Assembly: GCA_008017315.1 (NCBI GenBank)
Contig: SSHE01000115.1
Coordinates: 1 to 32,719, forward strand
Length of the DNA stretch: 32,719 nucleotides
Source: Acinetobacter sp.
Lineage (GTDB): Bacteria > Pseudomonadota > Gammaproteobacteria > Pseudomonadales > Moraxellaceae
Direction of reading: 5' to 3'
Part shown: piece by piece, positions 16,542 to 20,271 of the stretch
Numbering within the stretch: position 1 is the stretch's first letter
Layout: every line of letters begins with the position of its first letter
Notes under the pieces: model-generated
The model's input: the letters and a program-made list of their open reading frames with translations, nothing else
What the model was told of the DNA's origin: nothing
Database searches by the model: none
Translations under genes and position numbers: made by a program

Positions 16542-16964
16542 TTAGTATTGTGCATCGGCTCGTACAATGGCTTCCGATGCTTTTTTAACAGCATGTAAAA
16601 GTTGTCCCAATAGCACGTCTTTGGCACTGATAGTCACGATCACCATCGGATAATTTTTCGATGGGACAGCGGTCAGGATCGCTTTGCCATTTTCGGCATC
16701 TAGGGTAATAGTCTGACAACCAATCAACTGAATTTCACTAATGAACGCAGTGACCATTGCCAAAATTGAGCTACTGACGGCGGCTATTTTACCACTATTT
16801 GGGATATCTTTCTTGTGAACATTGACCAATTCAAAACCATCTGTCGAACATAGCATGACAAAACTGACCCCATCAACACTCATTAAAATATTTTGGATTT
16901 CATTTTTGGCAACCATGATGAGTGGCCCTGGTGCTTTACGCTGGTTATTGGCATGATTGAACAT
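16542..16964 (-). CDS. Roadblock/LC7 domain protein (second copy in operon)
   Basis: IQNILMSVDGVSFVMLCSTDGFELVNVHKKD...SGKIAAVSSSILAMVTAFISEIQLIGCQTITLDAENGKAILTAVPS; MglB-like roadblock pattern. Confidence 0.82.
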   Translation of the reverse strand: MFNHANNQRKAPGPLIMVAKNEIQNILMSVDGVSFVMLCSTDGFELVNVHKKDIPNSGKIAAVSSSILAMVTAFISEIQLIGCQTITLDAENGKAILTAVPSKNYPMVIVTISAKDVLLGQLLHAVKKASEAIVRADAQY

Positions 16965-16968
16965 TTTA

Positions 16969-17520
16969 TTATTCCTCTTGATTTAATTTTTCTAAATTGA
17001 CTTCAACCGAGGCAATCAGTGCATCTATTAACAGTAGTACATCTTTTTTGTTGCGAGCATCGATATGAAATAGGGGATAAGATTTCTGATATTTTGCCAG
17101 CCATTCATGATAAATAGTGGTGATTTTTTCAGGCTTTTCATCAATATGGGTGATGCCAATGACCATATTGTCGGTAAAATCAGCAAAAGCAGACACATAA
17201 AACTCTAAGTCTTGTAAAGAATTCATACTGCTATGATCAATCAAAATGACTGTACCGATTGCACCTTTACAAATCACCGACCACATAAAGTCAAAACGAT
17301 TTTGCCCTGGTGTGCCGTATAGACCAATTTTTAAATCATTGTCTAAAGTCACCTCGCCGTAATCAATACCCACGGTTGTGAGTTGTTTTTGATGTGCATT
17401 CACATCGGTATTCATGGTTTCGGTGGTCAATACGGGAATATCAGACAAAGACTGGATGGCTGCGGACTTTCCTGCACCCATTGAGCCACCAAAAACAATT
17501 TTATACTGCTGTAAAATCAT
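16969..17520 (-). CDS. MglA-like small GTPase
   Basis: P-loop GGSMGAGKSAAIQSLS, G3-like LYGTPGQNRFDFMW, G4-like ITHIDE. Confidence 0.87.
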   Translation of the reverse strand: MILQQYKIVFGGSMGAGKSAAIQSLSDIPVLTTETMNTDVNAHQKQLTTVGIDYGEVTLDNDLKIGLYGTPGQNRFDFMWSVICKGAIGTVILIDHSSMNSLQDLEFYVSAFADFTDNMVIGITHIDEKPEKITTIYHEWLAKYQKSYPLFHIDARNKKDVLLLIDALIASVEVNLEKLNQEE

Positions 17521-17536
17521 GGCGTAAGTATTCCTT

Positions 17537-18502
17537 TTATAGACCTAAACGGCGACGTAAGCTACCGAAAAATTTGCGTACAGCACTGGTTTCTTCGCTA
17601 GGTTTCTGTTGATTTTTGGATAAATATTTTGCTTTACCAGCATAGATAGGATAGGCAAAATCTATACCAAGACTTGCGGCAATAAACTGCTGTACCCGTT
17701 GTATGGGCAAGTTAAGTTGCTCTGAAACGGTTGAAATTTGTGCACCTTGAATAAAACAGGCAGACATACGTAAAATATCACGTCGGTCGGCATTGTCTTC
17801 GGGTTGTGGCCAATATTTGAGCTGAAAATATCCATTTTCGGGTGCTAATGCAATAAAATCAGGTGATTGCCACAAGAGATTCCATAACCAAAATTTTAAA
17901 TCCTGCCGTGTACTTTTGGCGAACTGTAAACTCTGGCTCATGGTGGCATAGGTATAATTCAGGGTGTAATCAGTCGATTTGAGGCGACGCTGAGGCTCAC
18001 GAAAAAACCATTGCCCACGGACATCCGCCAGTCCGAGTTGCCCATGACCATCAAAAATAAGGATTTTTCCATTCATAGGGTCGAGCAATTCGGTGAGGAA
18101 TTTTTGCTTATCGGACGTATCGTGTTCTACCTGTAAAACAGATGAGCTAAGTTCAGGCGATTGATGGATCTGCTGCGTACTGTGTTCGGTGAGCCAATGC
18201 AAAATCGGTGTCGTATCGACGATGGGAAGATACAGGACATTGTCTTCAATTATACTATTTTTATCGGTATTGCTGATCAGGCGTAAAACAGAAAAATGAT
18301 GGGTTTTCATCAGATTTTGAATACTAGGTGTTTCAAAAAATATGTCATTAATGAGGAGAATGTCTAAATTTGGCTCAGAAACAGAACACCAGTGTATTTG
18401 GATATCTTGAGCAAGAATGTCCTGTATTTGTGCTTTTAGAGCATTCAGAGTACGCAAATTTAGACCAAAAATGGCAATATGCAGCTGTTTTTGAGCATTC
18501 AT
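17537..18502 (-). CDS. Uncharacterised protein: N-terminal receiver-like fold and C-terminal helix-turn-helix-like region
   Basis: N-term LHIAIFGLNLRTLNALKAQIQDIL...PNLDILLINDIFF resembles a degenerate receiver; C-term DILRMSACFIQGAQISTVSEQLNLPIQRVQQFIAASLGI resembles a wHTH. Domain calls are by eye. Confidence 0.6.
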   Translation of the reverse strand: MNAQKQLHIAIFGLNLRTLNALKAQIQDILAQDIQIHWCSVSEPNLDILLINDIFFETPSIQNLMKTHHFSVLRLISNTDKNSIIEDNVLYLPIVDTTPILHWLTEHSTQQIHQSPELSSSVLQVEHDTSDKQKFLTELLDPMNGKILIFDGHGQLGLADVRGQWFFREPQRRLKSTDYTLNYTYATMSQSLQFAKSTRQDLKFWLWNLLWQSPDFIALAPENGYFQLKYWPQPEDNADRRDILRMSACFIQGAQISTVSEQLNLPIQRVQQFIAASLGIDFAYPIYAGKAKYLSKNQQKPSEETSAVRKFFGSLRRRLGL

Positions 18503-18548
18503 GAAAAATGATAACCAGAAGTAGGTAGAAGGATAATCTGGAATACAT

Positions 18549-18579
18549 AAACTTACAGCCTATGAGAGGCTGTAAGTTT
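18549..18579 (-). promoter_or_regulatory. Intercistronic hairpin in the Roadblock/GTPase operon
   Basis: Perfect 12-bp arms AAACTTACAGCC / GGCTGTAAGTTT, 7-nt loop, with no strong T-run. Confidence 0.7.
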
Positions 18580-18589
18580 GGGTAGCACA

Positions 18590-18949
18590 TTAAAAAAAAT
18601 CTAAACCTTTCTCAAAACTCTTCAATTCGTGACGTGCCATTGCAAGATTGGATTTTGAACGATCCAAAACGATATATAGGAATAAAGTATTATTACGATC
18701 AAGCGGGCGAATAATATGATATTGCTTACCCAGTGTAATCAGAATATCTTCAATTTCATCACCAAGATTCAACGCTGCAGCGACTTTACGTTTTGCACGT
18801 ACAACTTCGGTATTTCCAGCAGCTGCAAGTTCAAGGTCGATACCACCACCACCTTGAGTTGCCAATGCTAGACCACTATCACCATCGACCAATGCACCTG
18901 CGATAAAACCATCAATATCTGCTAATGCTGCTAGTGAAATTTTTGCCAT
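18590..18949 (-). CDS. Roadblock/LC7-like protein, first gene of operon
   Basis: [89 protein letters not shown]. Confidence 0.78.
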
Positions 18950-19127: not shown

Positions 19128-19151
19128 TAGTGTCACAATATTGTGACACTA
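19128..19151. repeat. 24-bp perfect palindrome TAGTGTCACAATATTGTGACACTA
   Basis: Read directly; overlaps the stop codon of the minus-strand CDS ending at 19149. Confidence 0.95.
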
Positions 19152-19820
19152 TATGATGCTTTTAAACAGGAAAAGGATAATGCTGATTGCAATCACAGGA
19201 TTGATGATACGATAAAAACAGCTTGCCTGTTGAGGTGTTGTGTTTGAGTCATCTATAAGCAAATGTGTATCATGTTCAGGCGGTTGTTGGGCTTGTTTTT
19301 GAATCATTTGGCTAAACTCTTTCATCACTTGATTAAAATCGGCATCTGGTTGTTGTGCCTCTCTCGTGATTTTGAACTCGGGATGCCCAATACTGTCCCA
19401 AAACCATGGCTCAACCTCTTGCTGTAACCAAGGATATTGCCCGTCTAGCAATTCATTGATGCCTAAAGCTCCCAATTGTGCAGTCTGATCGAGTTGAGAG
19501 AGTTCATTTAAGATGAGAGCAGCGATTTTTTGATGACTTTCAGCGATTTTACTTTGAATGTGCTGAAAGAAAGTTGCTGCAACCGTATCCTGCTCAATCT
19601 GCCGTGTACTCAGTTGCACTAACCAATCTGCATCGAGTTGCTGGATTTTTTGATAAGCAAGGGTACTGTCTTTTTTTGAACATTGCATCAATTGGTTGAG
19701 TTGAAAGGCAACCAAATGAATGATATAGCGATGTTTGAATGACTTTTCTTCGCCAGCTAAAAGCGTAGGCTGCTGCTGTCCGACTTGTTGCGAAATATAG
19801 TTTAAAAAATCAAAAGCCAT
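19149..19820 (-). CDS. Uncharacterised protein with C-terminal hydrophobic (tail-anchor-like) segment
   Basis: MAFDFLNYISQQVGQQQPTLLAGEEKSFKHRYIIHLVAFQLNQLM...ending CFYRIINPVIAISIILFLFKSII*; internal Met chosen over the longer ORF start, which overlaps sspB. Confidence 0.7.
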   Translation of the reverse strand: MAFDFLNYISQQVGQQQPTLLAGEEKSFKHRYIIHLVAFQLNQLMQCSKKDSTLAYQKIQQLDADWLVQLSTRQIEQDTVAATFFQHIQSKIAESHQKIAALILNELSQLDQTAQLGALGINELLDGQYPWLQQEVEPWFWDSIGHPEFKITREAQQPDADFNQVMKEFSQMIQKQAQQPPEHDTHLLIDDSNTTPQQASCFYRIINPVIAISIILFLFKSII

Positions 19821-19848
19821 CGTCTGTTCCTTGTGGTCTAGGGTTGCA

Positions 19849-20271
19849 TCAATCCAAGATGCGTAAAGTTGGTTTTTTCTTTGTATCTGTCTGTGCAGCT
19901 TGGGTTTCTGCAAGAGCATCTTCACTTGGCATAGTGTAATGCTCATATTCTTGTGGGTCAAAGAATAAACCTTGTCCATTTTCACGACTATAAATACCCA
20001 TGACCGCAGACATCGGAACGTAAATATCCTGAGCTACGCCCCCAAAACGAGCATTAAAATGAATGGCTGTATGTTCTATTTGAAACTTATGCACTGCATG
20101 AGGCGTGATGTTGAGTACAATTTGCCCATCTTTAATATGCTGGGGTGGCACGTGTACGTTGGCTTGTGTCGCATCCACCAATAAATAGGGCGTAAGCTGA
20201 TTGTCACAAATCCATTCATAGATGGCACGAGCAAGATAGGGACGAGTTGGGCTGAGGTCTGTCTGTGTCAT
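19849..20271 (-). CDS. sspB: ClpXP protease specificity-enhancing factor / stringent starvation protein B
   Basis: RPYLARAIYEWICDNQLTPYLLVDATQANVHVPPQHIKDGQIVLNITPHAVHKFQI...ARFGGVAQDIYVPMSAVMGIYSRENGQG. Confidence 0.96.
   Translation of the reverse strand: MTQTDLSPTRPYLARAIYEWICDNQLTPYLLVDATQANVHVPPQHIKDGQIVLNITPHAVHKFQIEHTAIHFNARFGGVAQDIYVPMSAVMGIYSRENGQGLFFDPQEYEHYTMPSEDALAETQAAQTDTKKKPTLRILD

Follow-up and report, generated by a model that had tools for sequence, protein, structure and literature searches.

What kind of switch is encoded by four neighboring minus-strand genes of an Acinetobacter contig, and what might it control? Eukaryotic polarity control by Ras/Rab proteins has its best bacterial counterpart in MglA-type switches, and we know of almost nothing about their roles outside Myxococcus, Thermus, Bdellovibrio and the actinobacteria. 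Within the stretch analyzed (32,719 nucleotides, referred to hereafter as the window), the four open reading frames were found exactly where a preliminary description of this DNA had placed them, and the spacings that it gave across the last three genes (16 and 4 nt) are correct; a gap of 87 nt separates the RblA and P321 genes. The locus comprises:

18590..18949, minus strand: RblA, a divergent Roadblock/LC7 protein of 119 aa (Robl_LC7, E 0.008)
18549..18579, minus strand: hairpin of 13 bp without a T-tract, between the RblA and P321 genes
17537..18502, minus strand: P321, the Group 3 partner protein, 321 aa, with no Pfam match
16969..17520, minus strand: MglA-type small GTPase of 183 aa, with Group 3 motifs
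16542..16964, minus strand: RblB, an MglB-type Roadblock protein of 140 aa and presumed GAP (Robl_LC7, E 1.9e-4)

MglA GTPases have been divided into five groups, of which Group 3 is nearly confined to beta- and gamma-proteobacteria and combines a GTPase bearing GTPGQ, a G4 motif often without Lys and DAR in G5 with one or two MglB proteins (conserved Asp-Gly) and a partner of unknown function, receiver-like at its N-terminus and winged-helix-like at its C-terminus (Wuichet & Søgaard-Andersen, 2014, PMC4316618). The window GTPase (Pfam ATP_bind_1, E 8e-10; Ras, E 3.8e-6) carries GxxxxGKS, GTPGQ at G3, THID at G4 (a THxD motif with no Lys) and DAR at G5, and GTPGQ, THxD and DAR are also conserved in the GTPases of its relatives. 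RblB has the Asp-Gly pair (D42-G43, invariant in n = 13 sequences), RblA is a second Roadblock with Ser-Gly where Group 2–5 MglB proteins have Asp-Gly, and P321 joins a receiver-like to a winged-helix-like region and is homologous to the partner in the Snodgrassella and Methylococcaceae loci. The taxonomic range also agrees, with matches in Halothiobacillus, Methylococcaceae, Snodgrassella and Burkholderiales in addition to Acinetobacter. Judged by motifs and gene content, the window module is a Group 3 MglA system; the preliminary description had regarded the arrangement as undescribed, which is wrong for the kind since the operon matches this published account. Its picture of a GTP switch that has two Roadblock proteins and a pseudo-receiver/helix-turn-helix protein as partners is supported, and its statement that no function had been assigned in this lineage holds in that we found no mention of the module, and no functional paper on Roadblock, MglA/MglB or Ras-like GTPase proteins, in the Acinetobacter literature.

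The module is thus real, conserved and ordinary in kind, yet a distinct variant. It shares with published Group 3 systems the GTPGQ/Lys-less G4/DAR GTPase, the Asp-Gly MglB, the receiver plus winged-helix partner and the complement of one or two Roadblocks, but differs in that neither the phospho-accepting Asp nor the Lys is kept in its receiver, in that RblA belongs to a separate, divergent family falling below the Pfam cut-off, and in that many genomes carry two to four copies; the TPR protein, PAS protein and phosphonate-binding-like neighbors of canonical Group 3 loci are absent from the window. The mgl operon of Snodgrassella (Group 3, PMC11112851) encodes a GTPase and a P321-like protein homologous to those of the window (locus L102), but its receiver is canonical, its Roadblocks comprise a 219-aa protein with an N-terminal extension and one of 121 aa, it has a TPR neighbor, and an orphan mglB lies elsewhere.

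Two better-known MglA architectures were compared with the window. The Group 1 system of Myxococcus xanthus (MglA/MglB/MglC/RomR) has an equal parts list, namely a GTPase, a GAP-type Roadblock, a non-GAP Roadblock and a receiver hub; its MglC bridges RomR and MglB and is devoid of GAP activity (PMC10329633, PMC7949163). A Group 1 module is nevertheless ruled out by the GTPase, which has GTPGQ in place of TVPGQ and Thr in place of the intrinsic Arg finger. RomR also differs from P321 in pairing a real receiver with a disordered linker and acidic tail, with no winged helix, and the charges are reversed: acidic RomR tail and basic MglC in Myxococcus, basic P321 tail and mostly acidic RblA here. 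A Group 2 relay of a sensor kinase, as in the Streptomyces conservons (cvn), would likewise account for the pairing of Roadblock and MglA-type GTPase genes, which cvn operons share with the window; a Pfam scan of the neighboring genes, however, found no CvnA kinase and no DUF742/CvnC gene, in agreement with the earlier remark that no histidine kinase adjoins the four genes, and the G4 motif is THxD rather than NxFD. On these three grounds we reject the conservon explanation, which we regard as barely credible.

In Pfam both Roadblock proteins score below the curated cut-off. A profile built from RblB relatives matches the Asgard Roadblock 9jue (E 1.6e-4) and one from RblA relatives the Asgard Roadblock 7yh1 (E 0.002), and the original Roadblock calls stand. 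The AlphaFold2 model of RblA (pLDDT 85.5) has Roadblock topology, and Foldseek places it with Ragulator subunits, an Asgard Roadblock and Myxococcus/Thermus MglB (E about 1e-5, probability 1.00). RblA is 74–81% identical within Acinetobacter, and its relatives outside the genus often adjoin P321, GTPase and RblB genes. RblB is presumed to be the GAP of the GTPase, whereas RblA, with its Ser-Gly, may be MglC-like. The genome of the window (G000) also holds an orphan RblA paralogue between unrelated genes (C80:7334-7681; L159:1489-1896), recalling the orphan mglB of Snodgrassella.

P321 has no match in either family library searched (Pfam, NCBIfam). Its AlphaFold2 model (pLDDT 89.7) comprises a pseudo-receiver (residues 1–108), an alpha/beta middle domain (129–219), a winged-helix-like region (225–285, where the predicted helix–strand layout fits a winged helix) and a C-terminal helix (305–318). 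Foldseek with the whole model gave nothing below E 0.001, and only the receiver-domain matches were used: the CheY-like 3snk and the REC domain 6swl (probability 1.00, E about 0.01). A receiver-like N-terminus, as first proposed for the 321-aa protein, is hence agreed upon by model and structural search. Of the residues expected of a canonical response regulator, the phospho-accepting Asp is replaced by Asn and the conserved Lys by Leu in the window P321, with the Pro kept, and nearly all Acinetobacter copies have Asn/His for Asp and Leu/Tyr for Lys. In nearly all members the last helix combines positive charge with amphipathicity, and in the window P321, as in most others, no 14-residue stretch of the protein is more amphipathic; its charge lies between +4 and +6 in most copies from Acinetobacter, with a conserved F/L face. 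These properties suggest a membrane- or partner-docking tail.

The architecture of P321 invites an explanation in terms of transcription, in which the GTPase and Roadblocks would gate a P321 bound at promoters by its winged helix; such a role was suggested for Group 3 by Wuichet & Søgaard-Andersen (PMC4316618), the pairing of receiver-like and winged-helix-like regions is what it would call for, and the basic tail could also touch DNA. The winged-helix region, however, has a net charge of –1 in the window (family median +2) and no strongly basic recognition helix, the receiver is degenerate, and the tail, through its conserved amphipathic F/L face, is better suited to contact with a membrane or a protein than with DNA. 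We consider transcription control rather unlikely on this balance. The DNA- or protein-binding output envisaged in the preliminary description is retained in part: DNA binding is one option, but the tail would suit a scaffold bound to a membrane or partner no less well.

We next consider whether the four genes form one unit. We scored 176 Acinetobacter species genomes for P321 (found in 109), RblA (112) and RblB (107). P321 and RblA occur together in 106 of the 176 (exceptions 3 and 6), as do P321 and RblB (exceptions 3 and 1), with Fisher values of 1e-36 to 1e-43 that ignore shared ancestry and are not phylogeny-corrected. One of the exceptions, G451, is P321-positive and has neither Roadblock in a genome that is 64% complete; in another, G022, both Roadblocks are absent and the GTPase (L038:10081-10608) lacks GTPGQ, a loss expected of a module that is apparently decaying. 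Loss is also seen unit-wise: at one locus (L136, genome G014) the amino-acid permease of the window (84% identical) comes immediately after sspA-sspB-orf, precisely the four genes being gone, and a comparison of L138 with L039 reveals the same four-gene absence around another neighbor. The four genes belong together, and their conservation in more than 100 Acinetobacter species is well beyond chance. The module is present in about 60% of species, A. pittii and A. nosocomialis among them, and frequently as several copies; a contig scan matched a strain labeled A. baumannii (ACIN00150) among the relatives.

The description as one four-gene operon calls for a qualification. The hairpin between RblA and P321 folds with z –5.8/–4.6 in the window, and in eight relatives z ranges from –2.8 to –7.0; its position is conserved and its sequence is not, and it is present in all listed Acinetobacter relatives with a gap of at least 38 nt. 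A terminator scan of the window found no T-tract terminator between the two genes. The hairpin may set RblA expression apart from that of the other three genes, and a structure of this strength after RblA makes a single transcript uncertain; the tight unit is the last three genes (P321, GTPase and RblB). Further upstream, a perfect palindrome (19128-19151, TAGTGTCACAATATTGTGACACTA) overlaps the stop codon of the ORF preceding RblA and is possibly a terminator or operator.

A Pfam scan placed sspA, sspB and an ORF without known family on one side of the locus and the amino-acid permease on the other. The usual order in module-bearing species is rplM-rpsI-sspA-sspB-orf(~220 aa)-RblA-P321-GTPase-RblB; sspA and sspB are Pfam names, while rplM and rpsI, and smc and glnA below, are what we take the genes to be from their translations. 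This conserved position in most module-bearing species could be read as making the four genes part of the sspA-sspB (ClpXP adaptor) cluster, with a role in proteolysis or starvation, but the module also occurs at other loci, and we reject the link because sspAB-orf is retained at a locus that has lost the four genes, leaving it highly improbable. The ORF after sspB (19149-19985), conserved and with a hydrophobic stretch at its C-terminus, is likewise kept where the four genes are missing, and is hence not part of the module. Other copies are laid out as a P321-GTPase pair beside smc, a P321-GTPase pair beside glnA, or GTPase-RblB-P321-RblA elsewhere; where the pair stands alone, RblA is usually at another place in the genome. 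The window P321 sits at the sspB locus but branches with smc-locus paralogues (support 0.72), which may point to replacement by a paralogue.

Comparison of P321 homologues indicates that Group 3 splits into a canonical-receiver type and a pseudo-receiver type, with Acinetobacter in the latter; this division, drawn from sequence comparison, is new here. In the canonical set all 17 beta/gamma-proteobacterial P321 homologues keep the Asp, Lys and Pro of the receiver, whereas in Acinetobacter and its relatives the Asp is mostly Asn/His and the Lys mostly Leu/Tyr, and the Pro stays. The two sets fall on different branches of a P321 FastTree. RblA is found in the locus of 0/22 D/K-containing versus 10/15 D/K-lacking non-Acinetobacter loci (Fisher 9e-6; some loci are short, such that the counts of absence are lower bounds), and of 321 sampled genomes of the class, 60 are matched by the canonical-type profile and 13 by that of RblA. 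The second Roadblock-like protein of the canonical type is another one (about 213 aa), and its loci often have TPR, PAS and phosphonate-binding-like neighbors; a sequence search for FimV-type TPR proteins among the neighbors of distant relatives returned only weak, generic TPR matches. The confinement of RblA to the pseudo-receiver type, the cationic amphipathic end of P321 and the hairpin isolating RblA are also new. We tentatively propose, while thinking it doubtful as a whole, that these represent two designs, one driven by receiver phosphorylation and the other with a dead receiver controlled by the extra RblA, and that Acinetobacter uses the second to steer membrane-anchored surface machinery.

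Our best reading, held with moderate confidence, is that of a Group 3 pseudo-receiver GTPase module acting as a polarity or pilus-control switch in the manner of Myxococcus MglA/MglB/MglC/RomR. From the MglC/RomR parallel, and from the presence of Asp-Gly in RblB but not in RblA, we infer that the GTPase is the switch, RblB the GAP, RblA the bridge and P321 the hub. The GTPase would cycle between GTP and GDP forms, with RblB as its activating partner and RblA as a non-activating Roadblock linking RblB to P321; P321 would bring the components together at the membrane or a pole via its cationic C-terminal helix. In relatives that retain the receiver Asp and Lys, phosphorylation could set the hub, whereas in Acinetobacter this input would have been lost and RblA binding presumably takes over control. 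The most likely output would be control over the place or time of surface-machinery (type IV pilus) activity, as in Myxococcus. Against this scheme, the winged-helix region could bind DNA, RblA bridging is proposed by analogy only, and the charges are the reverse of those in Myxococcus. The comparison of the two receiver types makes a testable prediction, that of a receiver without phosphorylation paired with a new Roadblock partner, and Acinetobacter is a convenient genus for tests of polarity and pilus control.

The evidence on a pilus output points in both directions. With CheW standing in for the pilus chemosensory system (Pil-Chp), 9/9 near-complete CheW-less Acinetobacter genomes are without P321 (p 1e-4, uncorrected), which is consistent with, though not strong evidence for, dependence on that system; 58 P321-negative genomes keep CheW, and the module is therefore not required for it. 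The one functional lead for the Group 3 kind is indirect: passaged Snodgrassella with a mutated orphan mglB formed motile flares, with altered colony edges, on soft agar, which the authors credit to type IV pili (PMC11112851). The 20 aggregation/twitching mutants listed for a complete N. meningitidis library include no GTPase or Roadblock gene, in a strain that may lack the locus (PMC7606547).

A GTPase switch of like build could serve a non-pilus output (envelope, division or metabolic control), possibly specific to each paralogue. The meningococcal result, the dispensability of the module where Pil-Chp is kept, the extra P321-GTPase copies beside unrelated genes (smc, glnA) and the two to four copies in many genomes all speak for it, but most known MglA-type phenotypes in Gram-negatives concern pili, gliding or polarity, and we treat this alternative as possible while leaning against it.

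The genome of the window also contains a second, distant MglA-type locus (G000:C82; L021:8427-15029). Its two P321-like proteins have canonical-looking receivers (IIDLDD, with TKP in one of them), and they are accompanied by a 134-aa protein without assigned family, a GTPase and the products of two Roadblock genes, together with two fusion proteins, one joining an ABC ATPase to a dual-specificity phosphatase and the other a ferredoxin to a globin.
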